Origin: a virus
IMG/VR virus record: IMGVR_UViG_3300041955_000171
Coordinates: 1 to 21,754 of that record
DNA: 21,754 nt
Strand: one strand, 5' to 3'
Shown: in pieces, positions 7,825-21,754 of the stretch
Layout: each line of letters opens with the position of its first letter
How positions within the stretch are numbered: position 1 is the stretch's first letter
Position numbers and translations under genes: made by a program
Notes under the pieces: generated by a model
Seen by the model: the letters and a program-made list of their open reading frames with translations, nothing else
What the model was told of the DNA's origin: nothing
Databases searched by the model: none

Positions 7825-9393
7825 TTACTTGGCGATCAATTCGCCGAATGCGGCGTCAACGTCGATCGTCTTGTTGACGAGCTGCGGACCGGCGTTAGCG
7901 CCAGTCGCCGGGATCTGCTGGCCAGGAGCGGGGGTCGCCTCGAGCTTGGCCTTCATCGTGGCCATTTCGGCCAGGACGGGGGCGAGCGCTGCGGTGACGG
8001 CCTTCGAGACGGCGTCCTCGGCAACCGGGGCAGCCTTCTCTTCAGGCTCGGGCTCTTCGCCGGCGCCGGCGTCCTTCGCGGCCTTCATGCACTTCTCGCA
8101 GTGATCCATCATGGCTTGGTGGGCCTTGACGATTGGGTGTTCTTTCGAGAGCGTGCCCTCGAGCTTCTCGTGGAGCGCCTTGTGCATCTCCATGTGCTTT
8201 TCGAGGTGGTCGGCTACGGTCTTCGCGGCCTTCGTCAGTCCAGCCTGGTCGGTGATTTTCATGCCCTTAGCTCCTTTGCCGCCAGCCGCGGCCAATTCGT
8301 CTGCTTCCTCGATCGCCATTTCCTTGAACTCTGCCAGGAGTGCCACCCAGGCCTCGCGCAACCCTTCGGGAACCTTGCTGTCGTCCCCTTCCAGTTCGCG
8401 CTCGAATTCCGTCTGTTGGCAGAGCCAGTGAAGACTCTCGAGGAGGTCGCCAAGCCAGCCGACCTCATACAGCCCCTTTTTCAAAGCGAGTTTAGCACAG
8501 GCCCTCGATACAGCAGCCTTCTCGCTCTCGGACGCCTCGATGCCGTTCTCCTTGGCCGCAGCCAGGATCTTCTTCTTCGCCTTGGCCTTTTCGTCGGCGC
8601 TCATCCCCTCGGTCTGTTCGAACCGGGCCAGCGCGTTCCGGATGTGCGACTTGGTCTTTTCCTCGTCGCCGGGGAACTTGATCGGCAACTTCCAGGTTTC
8701 AGGATCGTCGGGATCCCCGACGTGCGCGAAGCAGTCGGCGGTCAAAGACACCCCGTCAACTGTCTTGGACTTCTTCTCCTTCAGGAGTTCGAGGACCGTG
8801 CCCAGGGTGCGCTCCATCTTGTCGAGCCGCAGGTTGCCGGCGTCCGGAATCACCAGGGAGAGTTGCTCGGTCGCCCCGGCCGCCTTCACCAGCGTCACGG
8901 TGCGGCCCTTCATCGAATCCACCAGCGCCGTCGGTAGGCAGGGAGCATCTACGGCCGACCACTCCATCGGATCGGCGGTGTACCGGATGCAGCCAGGAAA
9001 GTCGGGATCGTCCCACTTTTTCACATACTCGCCGCCCTGTGAAAAACCGATCAGCACGCCGGACCGGAACTTCAGGACAGCGGTGGGCTCGACGATGTGG
9101 GTGAGGCCATGGATGCTCTTCGCCGTGTCGTTGTACTCGATCGACCGCCCGGCGCCGATCGCCTTTAGCTGGTGCATTTCCCGCACCGGCATGCACGACG
9201 GGGTCATGCCTGGAACTGAGGTCTTGGCAAGGTTCTCGGCCCCGCGCTGCTCATAGAGAGCCTTGGTCGTCGCGTAGTCGCAGACTTCCTTCTCGAGGTC
9301 CGGCTGCTGGGCCGTGATGAGAGCGTGAACCAGGAGAGTCCCGTCGCCCTGCTCCTCGATCTTCGTAAGCGGTGCGAACTTTTGGAGCTTCAT
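7825..9393 (-). CDS. Prohead protease (XkdF-like) fused to scaffold-like region
   Basis: A 522-aa protein. The ATG at 9393 overlaps the previous stop in ATGA; the longer GTG reading at 9426 lies inside the upstream gene. Residues 10-175 resemble XkdF-type phage proteases, with a conserved GVLIGFSQGG (candidate nucleophile S118) and MHQLKAIGAG (candidate H74); these residue roles are inference. Residues about 220-288 match a DUF6582-like segment (TWKLPIKF, IRNALARFEQTEG, KKKILAAAKENGIE). Residues 345-490 are acidic and helical, with a His/Met/Lys-rich stretch, then an Ala/Pro/Glu linker, as in internal scaffolding domains. The position directly upstream of the capsid gene fits a maturation protease that carries its own scaffold. 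Confidence 0.75.
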   Translation of the reverse strand: MKLQKFAPLTKIEEQGDGTLLVHALITAQQPDLEKEVCDYATTKALYEQRGAENLAKTSVPGMTPSCMPVREMHQLKAIGAGRSIEYNDTAKSIHGLTHIVEPTAVLKFRSGVLIGFSQGGEYVKKWDDPDFPGCIRYTADPMEWSAVDAPCLPTALVDSMKGRTVTLVKAAGATEQLSLVIPDAGNLRLDKMERTLGTVLELLKEKKSKTVDGVSLTADCFAHVGDPDDPETWKLPIKFPGDEEKTKSHIRNALARFEQTEGMSADEKAKAKKKILAAAKENGIEASESEKAAVSRACAKLALKKGLYEVGWLGDLLESLHWLCQQTEFERELEGDDSKVPEGLREAWVALLAEFKEMAIEEADELAAAGGKGAKGMKITDQAGLTKAAKTVADHLEKHMEMHKALHEKLEGTLSKEHPIVKAHQAMMDHCEKCMKAAKDAGAGEEPEPEEKAAPVAEDAVSKAVTAALAPVLAEMATMKAKLEATPAPGQQIPATGANAGPQLVNKTIDVDAAFGELIAK

Positions 9394-9872
9394 GCGGTCA
9401 CCCATCCACCGCTGAGGCCGGTGCACAGCACGCGCGCCATGACGGCGCCGCCGCTGACGTATGCGCCCAGGTAGGTCGGCGTCGTGGCATCGCTGACGAC
9501 AGCCGACGCCCCCTTGAGCGCGTCGCTTGCCGCTGGCAAGGGCGTGCCAGCCGCGCTATAGATCACCGCAGGCTGTTGGATCGACGGGAGATCAGCCGCC
9601 ACCAGCGCGCGGAAAGCGGGCGCGGCCGCAGATCCCGAGACTGGAGAGGCAAAGACCTTGTTCGCCGTCTGCGTGGCCTTGGTGACGGCCAGCGTTCCTG
9701 CGACGGTGATCGGCGAACCGGCCACCGCAAACTCGGCCGGCATCGAGAGCGCGACGCTCGTGACCGAACCCGAGCCATCGACCTGTTCGTCGAGCAGAAC
9801 GGCCTCGACGAGCGCGGCAACGGTGTCGACCTGAGACGTCGGGTTTTGCAGCAAACGCTGGAGGTTGCCCAT
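9390..9872 (-). CDS. Head decoration/fibre-like structural protein
   Basis: A 160-aa protein with ATG at 9872 and an AGAAGG SD just upstream. A short helical N-terminus (residues 1-30) is followed by Ser/Ala/Val-rich sequence (SGSVTSVALSMPAEFAVAG, then FRALVAADLPS). That phrase recurs in many phage appendage and head-surface proteins. The C-terminus (ASAVVSDATTPTYLGAYVSG ... GLSGGWV) resembles the end of head-fibre or decoration proteins. Its place between the portal and the protease/scaffold genes, next to a second beta-rich small protein, suggests a capsid surface component. Binding partner and fold cannot be told from sequence alone. Confidence 0.6.
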   Translation of the reverse strand: MGNLQRLLQNPTSQVDTVAALVEAVLLDEQVDGSGSVTSVALSMPAEFAVAGSPITVAGTLAVTKATQTANKVFASPVSGSAAAPAFRALVAADLPSIQQPAVIYSAAGTPLPAASDALKGASAVVSDATTPTYLGAYVSGGAVMARVLCTGLSGGWVTA

Positions 9873-9881
9873 TGCGCCTTC

Positions 9882-19698: not shown

Positions 19699-19800
19699 TC
19701 AGTCCTTTCCAATGCCTTTTGGCTTTGAAACGTAAAGAATCAGACAGATCACAAGCACGGCGGTCCCGCAGACGATCCGGGCGATCTCAAGTTCGCTCAT
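19699..19800 (-). CDS. 33-aa single-pass membrane peptide
   Basis: A short gene with ATG at 19800, GGAG 7 nt upstream, and TGA at 19699, ending just before the next ATG. The peptide has a short charged N-terminus (MSELEIAR), one membrane segment (IVCGTAVLVICLILYV) and a basic tail (SKPKGIGKD). Its place between the SleB-type hydrolase region and the holin-like gene suggests a lysis-cassette accessory such as a holin partner; that is inference. The strong ribosome site and snug fit support a real gene. Confidence 0.65.
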   Translation of the reverse strand: MSELEIARIVCGTAVLVICLILYVSKPKGIGKD

Positions 19801-19824
19801 GGCTGCTCCGTAAAGAACGGGATT

Positions 19825-19841
19825 TATATACTTAACTCCCT
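19825..19841. repeat. Left arm of inverted repeat around the 96-aa gene
   Basis: TATATACTTAACTCCCT. It is inverted at 20154-20170 with one mismatch in 17. It covers the 3' end (TAG at 19842-19840) of the enclosed gene. Confidence 0.7.
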
Positions 19842-20130
19842 ATTCCGTTTTCGGTGAGGTATTTGGAACCAGCGGCACCCTTCGCAAGAAATCTGGATGC
19901 GTGGTCGCCAGAACATGCTCGTCGGCAGGAAAGAGGGCGAGCACATCATCCAAATGTAGGCACTCTTTCAGATTTGGGCATGGATCACCGGGCTCTGTAA
20001 CGGCAATTTTCCCATTGCAGGTGTCGTTTCCAGCTTGAGCATCGTACAAAATGCCAACTACCGGGCTACCGTAGCCGAGGAGCACAACTTTGTCTCCGTT
20101 CTTCGCTTCACGTCCGTTTGCATAATGCAT
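19840..20130 (-). CDS. Small accessory protein between inverted repeats
   Basis: A 96-aa protein, ATG at 20130 with GAGG about 6 nt upstream. It opens MHYANGREAKNGDKVVLLGY, the M-x-Y-x-D/N-G-x-x-x-x-x-G-D-x-V pattern of small beta-barrel-like phage accessory proteins, and continues with Cys residues (C38, C51, C57) and an acidic patch. No known activity. Its base composition is lower in GC than its neighbours by eye, and a 17-bp inverted repeat brackets it. It may be an inserted moron-like gene within the lysis region. Confidence 0.7.
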   Translation of the reverse strand: MHYANGREAKNGDKVVLLGYGSPVVGILYDAQAGNDTCNGKIAVTEPGDPCPNLKECLHLDDVLALFPADEHVLATTHPDFLRRVPLVPNTSPKTE

Positions 20131-20153
20131 GTTTTCCTCTTTTCTCTCCCGTC

Positions 20154-20170
20154 AGGGAGTTAAGTATGTA
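20154..20170. repeat. Right arm of inverted repeat around the 96-aa gene
   Basis: AGGGAGTTAAGTATGTA, the reverse complement of 19825-19841 with one mismatch. It contains the TAA stop (20162-20160) of the SleB-type gene. In the leftward message the two arms could pair and enclose the whole 96-aa gene. Confidence 0.7.
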
Positions 20171-20603
20171 ATTCCCTAAAGAACAACTGGCCGCCGATTG
20201 AGGCCTGGTAGGTTACGACGGCCGGGTTCCAGGCTTCAGGGAACGGCACAGCCGAGCCGTCTGGAAGCGTAAAGGTCTTGGTAGACGTGATTGCCGCCGG
20301 GGCGTAATAGAGGGTGCTGCCGCGGGTCAGATCCGGGAGCCTGCCGGCAACCGCCTCCCAGGCGATGATCAGGGCTTCGCGCCACTGTGGATCGGCGTCC
20401 TCGGGCCATAGATCGGCTTCGGGGCCCGGTTCGGAGATTGAGGAAAACTGAGCGTGTTGCGTGCATACAGCATAGGGGGAATCGCCCGACTTGGCTACCC
20501 GGTTCATAACCACGTTGGCAACTGACTGCAGGCCAGGCGTGCCGGCCGAGCGGTTCTCGCGCCATGCGGTGAGTGCCGTAAGTGTCTGGTCCTGGGACGT
20601 CAT
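20160..20603 (-). CDS. SleB/CwlJ-type cell wall hydrolase (endolysin candidate)
   Basis: A 147-aa protein; the ATG at 20603 has AAGGTGG 6 nt upstream and overlaps the previous stop in ATGA, so the longer reading to 20651 is rejected. The sequence follows the Hydrolase_2 (SleB) family. AWRENRSAGTPGLQSVANVV carries the catalytic Glu (E16), followed by NRV and YAVCTQHAQFS, then the helix with WREALIIAWEAVAG, PDLTRGSTLYYAP and a C-terminal beta region. Proteins of this family cut peptidoglycan as lytic transglycosylases. No signal peptide is visible, so it would need a holin, consistent with the membrane proteins just downstream. Confidence 0.85.
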   Translation of the reverse strand: MTSQDQTLTALTAWRENRSAGTPGLQSVANVVMNRVAKSGDSPYAVCTQHAQFSSISEPGPEADLWPEDADPQWREALIIAWEAVAGRLPDLTRGSTLYYAPAAITSTKTFTLPDGSAVPFPEAWNPAVVTYQASIGGQLFFRELHT

Positions 20604-20737
20604 GCGCCCCACCTTGGATTGTGCCGGACATCCTTCGCCTGCGCTTCGCACACGCCACAGGAATCAATGGGCTGACCGTGGTAGGGGCAGACCCCGAAGG
20701 CCAAGTCCAGCAGCGATCTAAGCAGTCTCCAAAACAT
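20600..20737 (-). CDS. 45-aa zinc-knuckle-like protein
   Basis: A short gene with ATG at 20737 (TGATG with the previous stop), GGGAG 7 nt upstream and TGA overlapping the hydrolase ATG (ATGA). It has an amphipathic hydrophobic start (MFWRLLRSLLDLAFGV) followed by C17-x2-H20 and C27-x2-C30 (CPYH ... CGVC), a probable zinc site with a membrane-leaning helix. No known family. The overlaps at both ends argue strongly for expression. Confidence 0.65.
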   Translation of the reverse strand: MFWRLLRSLLDLAFGVCPYHGQPIDSCGVCEAQAKDVRHNPRWGA

Positions 20738-21081: not shown

Positions 21082-21754
21082 ATGACATTTCATTCGACCT
21101 TCGCCGCGCCGAATCCTACGGCAAGCGAAGCGTCCTGCGTGGTGGCAGGCAGGCCGGGCGACAAGACGGCCAGAAAAAGGACGGGGACAATGCAACTGAC
21201 TACGACCTTTGAGAAACTCCGCGCTGCAAACGCCTGTAAGAAACGCTACAGGTTCCTGCGCAAGGCGCTTCCCAACGTCAATGACCGTGAACCTATCAAT
21301 TTGCTCACGATCCTCGAAACAAGTGGCCTTGACGATGCTCTGTGGGCACTTTCAGCCACTGCCGAGAACTGCGACAAAGTCGCGCGCTTGATGGCGGCCG
21401 ACTTCGCCGAGCAGGTTCTACCGATCTGGCAGAATTACTCAACCGACAAACGGCCCGAGTTGGCGATTCAAGCCGCGCGCGATTTCGCGCAGGGCCGCAT
21501 TACGGCCGCCACCTGGGACGCCGGGGACGCCGCCGGGGCCGCCGCCGGGGCCGCCGCCAGGGCCGCCGCCAGGGACGCCGCCTGGGCCGCCGGGGCCGCC
21601 GCCTGGGACGCCGCCTGGGCCGCCGCCAGGGCCGTCGCCTGGGCCGCCGGGGACGCCTCCAGGGACGCCGCCTGGGCCGCCGCCTGGGCCGTCGCCTGGG
21701 GCGCCAGGGACGCCTCCAGGGACGCCGCCTGGGCCGCCGTGGACGCCGCCTGGG
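21082..21754 (+). CDS. Imm5-like family protein with Ala/Trp/Asp repeat (runs off right edge)
   Basis: This is the only rightward gene, open from ATG 21082 (AGGAG 6 nt upstream) to the edge. A second in-frame ATG at 21190 also has an AAGGA-type SD. It starts exactly where family resemblance begins (MQLTTTFEKLRAANACKKRY, then LETSGLDDALWALSAT and LMAADFAEQVLPIW, ending PELAIQAARDFAQG), so 21190 may be the true start. This matches my memory of phage and prophage proteins labelled Imm5-like or putative immunity protein. From about 21505 the protein turns into an Ala-rich helix with Trp, Asp and Arg repeating roughly every four residues. Role is unproven; the immunity label is by family name only. 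Confidence 0.7.
   Translation, partial: MTFHSTFAAPNPTASEASCVVAGRPGDKTARKRTGTMQLTTTFEKLRAANACKKRYRFLRKALPNVNDREPINLLTILETSGLDDALWALSATAENCDKVARLMAADFAEQVLPIWQNYSTDKRPELAIQAARDFAQGRITAATWDAGDAAGAAAGAAARAAARDAAWAAGAAAWDAAWAAARAVAWAAGDASRDAAWAAAWAVAWGARDASRDAAWAAVDAAW
21505..21754 (+). repeat. GC-rich low-complexity coding repeat (GCCGCC-T/A-GG units)
   Basis: Tandem short units built from GCC GCC TGG, GCC GCC AGG and GAC GCC GCC codons encode A-A-W/D-A-A-type repeats. The array is imperfect and continues past the window edge. It probably expands and contracts by slippage. Confidence 0.8.

Follow-up and report, generated by a model that had tools for sequence, protein, structure and literature searches.

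The window, by which we mean the whole stretch of viral DNA analyzed here (21,754 nucleotides), carries terminase, portal and endolysin genes. Close to one end, a gene for a 96-aa protein follows a cell-wall hydrolase gene; the 96-aa gene and all neighboring phage genes lie on the minus strand. A preliminary description had reported an inverted repeat around the 96-aa gene with 17-bp arms and one mismatch (19825-19841 and 20154-20170), covering the stop codons of this gene and of the hydrolase. We found the arms as described, overlapping the TAG stop codon of the 96-aa gene and the TAA stop codon of the hydrolase ORF at 20160-20651(-), and the repeat extends outward to 23 bp. The full arms (TIRs; GGGATTTATATACTTAACTCCCT at 19819-19841 and AGGGAGTTAAGTATGTAATTCCC at 20154-20176) are complementary at 21 of 23 positions. 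Each arm borders directly on one copy of TAAAGAAC (19811-19818 and 20177-20184); this exact 8-bp direct repeat is the decisive feature of the locus and had been overlooked. The features are as follows:

19811..19818: left copy of the target-site duplication (TSD), TAAAGAAC, an exact match to 20177-20184
19819..19841, plus strand: TIR at the cargo-stop end, GGGATTTATATACTTAACTCCCT, overlapping the TAG stop codon of the cargo
19840..20130, minus strand: cargo gene, 96 aa, of a family found in 79 viral loci
20131..20153, minus strand: leader from the start codon to the TIR, assigned from sequence
20154..20176, minus strand: TIR at the cargo-start end, GGGAATTACATACTTAACTCCCT on the minus strand
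20177..20184: right copy of the TSD, TAAAGAAC
19819..20176, minus strand: whole element, 358 bp, non-autonomous, with a single gene
20160..20651, minus strand: target gene, cell-wall hydrolase (PF07486, E = 1e-8)

The ribosome-binding site in the leader is purine-rich, GAGAAAAGAGGAAAAC, and a small hairpin, CTCCC-TGA-CGGGAG, is also present there. The cargo gene is the only ORF within the element, no promoter-like site was found around it within the limits of our promoter scan, and no transposase match was obtained anywhere in the window. The rest of the window has no second inverted pair with arms up to 600 bp apart, and 60 first-order Markov resamplings of the window did not yield a comparable pair. 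The TIRs together with the directly abutting, exact 8-bp TSD identify the 358-bp segment as a transposed element which, as judged from its ends, has demonstrably transposed once with an 8-bp duplication.

Reconstruction of the target site

The hydrolase now ends with ...GGQLFFRELHT*, of which RELHT and the TAA stop codon come from the TIR. When the flanks are joined at one copy of the TSD, the empty junction reads ...CAGTTGTTCTTTACGGAG..., the hydrolase ends with ...GGQLFFTEQP*, and its stop codon overlaps the ATG start codon of the small ORF that follows (ATGA). In L206 and L207, the homologues end with ...GGQVFFTQST*, which resembles the terminus obtained from the joined flanks; the state before insertion can thus be recovered from the sequence. 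On this reconstruction, the insertion replaced the last codons of the hydrolase by TIR sequence.

We also searched relatives for an empty site, as the preliminary description had proposed, and none was found at the nucleotide level. A syntenic junction was present neither in the hydrolase relatives L206-L208 (47-65% identity) nor in relatives of the neighboring 251-aa protein (L209-L215). L204 and L205 matched the junction pattern exactly and were rejected, as the DNA around both is unrelated. Comparison of the joined flanks of all elements with all fetched loci gave one weak paralogous match, in L179, and nothing else. Apart from this locus, positions 21515-21754 of the window form a long GCC-GGG/GCCGCC-type repeat run up to the contig end, which in a plus-strand frame reads as a low-complexity Ala/Trp/Asp-rich sequence cut by the contig end.

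Copies of the element and distribution of the 96-aa family

Another viral contig, L001 (also L114), holds a copy of the element that is 98.9% identical over 355 bp, and the similarity stops at its ends. Elements that are 74-75% identical are present in L002 and L074, each with its own distinct 8-bp TSD (AAAAGAAG and TTCTGTTT, respectively), and remoter homologues of the 96-aa gene in L139 and L149 are bounded by the same kind of TIRs. The suggestion that the repeat is the footprint of a mobile cassette is therefore strongly supported by the TIRs, the exact TSD, and the presence of the same element in unrelated DNA. No relative was encountered in which the gene occupies this site and the repeats are lacking; in relatives, the gene occurs at other sites, in a few cases with intact repeats, in some with decayed ones, and in most with none. 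In L114, three single-gene cassettes lie in the same orientation within 1.7 kb (8154-9874), with a NUDIX gene, a 121-aa gene of no recognized family, and the 96-aa gene as cargo. The last two are joined at a shared CCC (ATAATTCCCATTTATATAC); this fusion accounts for the absence of one terminal GGG.

Most of the 79 viral loci of the 96-aa family lie outside cassettes. The core of the protein is nearly invariant (MHYxNGREAKNGDKV...GNDxCNGxxA...NLxExLHxDD), and it has no match in Pfam or PHROG. The known phage and plasmid records contain neither a homologue of the protein nor a meaningful DNA match. Its structure model has a mean pLDDT of 68, and the top PDB matches are SH3/Tudor-like with none below E = 0.07; with low confidence, the predicted fold may be a small SH3/Tudor-like barrel. 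The model and the matches are too weak for a functional assignment. An anti-defence role would be a guess from the company that the gene keeps.

The tree of the protein is poorly resolved (70 columns), and the TIR-bearing copies do not form a single supported clade. The best upstream TIR match of the homologues follows a bimodal distribution. It has 0-1 mismatches in L001, L002, L073 and L074, and 3-6 mismatches in L004, L009, L013, L021, L024 and L026, where the remnants are usually one-sided and sit at the expected upstream distance of a gene that is not in a cassette. The remaining homologues are at background, with 8 or more mismatches, and shuffled controls never gave an upstream match as good as 6 mismatches. 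We read this pattern as the gene having arrived by cassette, with the ends presumably decaying afterwards. The majority of the homologues are without any TIR, so that the gene either also spreads otherwise or has lost its TIRs.

A family of elements with common TIRs

The window element is one of a family of elements with the same TIR of about 22 bp, GGGAAYTATATASTTAACTCCC. Pattern scans recovered this TIR in two overlapping sets of viral stretches, 61 and 62 in number, and in 32 genome stretches, mostly from acidobacterial, proteobacterial/deltaproteobacterial and candidate-phylum MAGs. Once the TIRs had been paired and duplicates discarded, 80 distinct insertions with both flanks remained in viral contigs and MAGs. 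An exact 8-bp TSD was present in 57 of these and one with a single mismatch in 5 more, compared to three 7-mer duplications and one 9-mer; swapping flanks between elements gave an expectation of about 0.06% for an 8-bp TSD. Low-complexity TSDs (e.g. T8) and leftover duplicates are few and cannot explain the 57 cases. The AT content of the TSDs is 82%, compared to 45% for the loci.

Sixty distinct viral insertions are transposase-less, measure 222-1426 bp (median 536) and mostly contain a single gene. Their architecture was evaluated in the 31 elements with an assignable cargo strand. In these, the ORF takes up a median of 90% of the element, the start codon is usually 22-53 bp from one end, and the stop codon lies inside the opposite TIR in 18 of 31 elements and otherwise usually no more than some tens of bases away from it. 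Read outward from the cassette, the TIR contains stop codons in two of three frames (RELSI* and GS*), which explains why many cargo proteins end with ELSI, ELTI or GS. In 28 of 30 cases the cargo lies on the strand that most of the large ORFs within 4 kb occupy, and in 2 it is opposite (p of about 1e-6 with rough ORF calling). Portal, Mu F, head-tail connector and DnaB helicase families are represented among the ORFs that flank other cassettes, and three or more cassettes can be present in one viral record. The cargo would be promoterless and depend on read-through from phage promoters.

IS1595-type transposases

Longer members of the family (1.5-3.1 kb) encode a transposase of about 305 aa with Zn_ribbon_IS1595 and DDE_Tnp_IS1595 domains. 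Both PF12762 and PF12760 were detected in all five transposases scanned from longer elements (E to 1e-48), and the DDE_Tnp_IS1595 domain is present in the TIR-sharing elements of L084, L110, L126, L132, L157 and L179. Twelve aligned transposases are 58-91% identical to the first; the copy in L129 has an internal deletion. The TIRs of the window element and of the transposase-bearing elements are identical at most positions. An 8-bp TSD is a known trait of IS1595 elements, as is a terminal GG of the related Merlin elements (PMC8101967). The window element is without a transposase and is thus a non-autonomous relative, not an IS1595 insertion sequence. A clear transposase match was found in 8 of 50 cassette-bearing records, which are partial. 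We infer that the cassettes are mobilized in trans by the IS1595-type transposases.

Two further arrangements were observed. In L147 (3433-4595) and L166 (3382-4534), a TnpB gene (OrfB_IS605/Cas12f-like) lies within IS1595-type TIRs, so that the ends of one transposon bear the nuclease gene of another. In L179 (209-2275), an Acidocella MAG, an HNH endonuclease that has homing-associated repeats (PF18780) is encoded behind the IS1595 transposase.

Cargo of the cassettes

According to Pfam, 15-17 of about 60 cassettes carry DNA-modification genes, including D12, N4/N6, C5, Dam and MT-A70 methylases, Mom and DpdA. Among the 103 ORFs flanking the same cassettes, at least two belong to DNA modification among the 25 families listed, besides which there are 33 single-member families. 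Fisher's test of 16/60 against 2/103 (among the families listed) gave p = 2e-6, with some of the cassettes interrelated. DNA modification (anti-restriction) seems to be the main selected cargo. Other cargo comprises NUDIX, MazG-like, TnpB, HNH and E2-like proteins and many proteins of no recognized family.

The cassettes with D12-type adenine methyltransferases in L128 (7224-8286), L135 (2020-3040), L155 (2259-3327) and L156 (732-1800) contain internal units of about 14-15 residues repeated in tandem (HLGDAGKGVHRQRP-like and IPHASDAGRGVQAIGK-like), and the number of units differs between close copies. A second small protein family (about 83 aa, ...GxxYYVDF...) without a Pfam match is present in four cassettes at different sites (L085, L092, L099 and L102). 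The cassette at L117:974-1767 encodes DpdA (7-deazaguanine insertion into DNA), and the rest of the pathway is absent.

Discussion

The window element is very probably a mobile insertion cassette, one of a family that shares its TIRs and is presumably moved in trans by IS1595-type transposases. It consists of a TIR, a ribosome-binding site, one ORF, presumably promoterless, and a second TIR, and contains no transposase. A full-length copy in the host or in a co-resident phage or prophage may provide the transposase, which would recognize the common TIRs and move cassettes to AT-rich sites. At the present locus, as the sequence shows, the element entered the 3' end of the phage hydrolase gene by DDE transposition and duplicated 8 bp. 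The insertions that are retained may be those with cargo in line with the phage operon, transcribed from a phage promoter, and the TIR provides genes reading into or out of the cassette with stop codons in two of three frames. With time, the TIRs would decay and the cargo would become a resident phage gene. The cassette pool may be exchanged among phages at co-infection or through prophages and hosts.

Since the TIR also occurs in 32 genome stretches, mostly MAGs, and host copies are a likely source of the transposase, the elements could be mainly bacterial-chromosomal, and the viral cases mis-binned host fragments or occasional prophage hitchhikers. We consider this unlikely given the terminase, portal and endolysin genes of the window, the phage families next to other cassettes (portal, Mu F, head-tail connector and DnaB helicase), and the presence of three or more cassettes in one viral record; in addition, the viral matches were drawn from a smaller collection than the genome matches. 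There is little to recommend the proposal that the element is a degenerate IS whose cargo is an inert leftover or a chance ORF in a MITE-like remnant. Non-autonomous IS derivatives (MITEs) are indeed common, and part of the element set has no recognizable cargo. However, the 96-aa protein is conserved across its viral loci, most of which are not in cassettes, coding sequence makes up about 90% of the element in the 31 evaluated, the cargo matches diverse intact enzyme families, and the 96-aa cassette does not derive from a transposase ORF.

The preliminary description had offered two further readings of the repeat, a long-range mRNA stem and an invertible cassette. As such a stem, or as a bidirectional terminator, the repeat would insulate the gene, and mobility would play no part. 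In the minimum-energy fold of 19800-20200 pairing between the arms is possible, and the cargo stop codon is at one arm, but the fold is unexceptional (z = -1.53; 9 of 100 shuffles were as good), the window has no Rfam match, and the single weak terminator-like site in the scan is within chance. An mRNA structure would also leave unexplained why the TSD of 8 bp is exact, why the identical element is present within unrelated DNA, and why there is the same repeat bounding unrelated genes and transposases, which makes it scarcely credible. Inversion by a site-specific recombinase, suggested by the bracketing inverted repeats, is similarly far-fetched, as no inverted copy and no recombinase next to the element were found, the orientation is strongly biased toward the phage genes (28 versus 2), and an 8-bp TSD at AT-rich, otherwise unrelated targets is typical of DDE transposition.

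The mobile insertion cassette of the window resembles the MICs, e.g. MIC231 of Bacillus cereus and mic-qnrD of Proteeae, in having two inverted repeats around a passenger gene, no transposase, and a target duplication; for MICs, mobilization in trans by the transposase of an IS is either assumed or demonstrated (PMC3913671). The MICs described there are single elements in bacterial chromosomes or plasmids, with a transposase of the IS231/IS4 type or an unidentified one. In contrast, dozens of cassettes share one IS1595-type TIR in phage genomes here, and they differ further in their extreme compactness, their co-orientation with phage genes, the use of TIRs as stop codons, and the bias toward DNA modification. 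With the IS1595 family, the window element has in common a TIR beginning with GG(G) and an 8-bp TSD, and the autonomous members of the TIR family carry a zinc ribbon and an ISXO2-like DDE transposase (PMC8101967), whereas the window element and 59 other viral elements are without a transposase. The same difference separates it from the tISs, IS derivatives with passenger genes (PMC9330008), which longer members resemble in combining a transposase with passenger genes (e.g. L157, L179, L160 and L202). MITEs are likewise TIR-bounded but non-coding, unlike the window element with its conserved 96-aa gene. Integron gene cassettes, recently reported in phages (PMC9892861), are also compact, promoterless one-gene units bounded by recombination sequences and found in clusters, as the three within 1.7 kb in L114; however, TIRs combined with an 8-bp TSD at dispersed, AT-rich sites point to DDE transposition and not to attC/attI site-specific recombination. 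The window element is therefore by definition a MIC, and neither an autonomous IS1595 element nor a MITE or tIS. In the open literature searched, no description of IS1595-type cassettes in phages was found. While the general kind is known, a phage-borne cassette family of such size, compactness and cargo bias is, provisionally, new with respect to this literature.

For the most part there is no explanation of how phages acquire single genes ("morons"). Phages are believed to contain few insertion sequences (PMC8136500, citing Leclercq and Cordaux 2011), and the survey of phage transposable elements in PMC8136500 went by transposase. As such surveys search for transposases, transposase-less cassettes would be missed. 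A pool of cassettes that is widespread and precisely bounded by TIR and TSD would offer a direct mechanism for one-gene mosaicism in environmental phages that can be tested by sequence. It is conceivable, if slightly short of an even call, that IS1595-type transposases and a shared cassette pool serve phages as integrons serve bacteria, preferring genes for DNA modification and counter-defence, moving them between unrelated phages, and thereby driving mosaicism. If this is true, the 96-aa protein and other cargo families would be promising candidates for a role in counter-defence. The clear over-representation of DNA modification in the cargo makes a TIR-based collection of candidate anti-defence genes possible.
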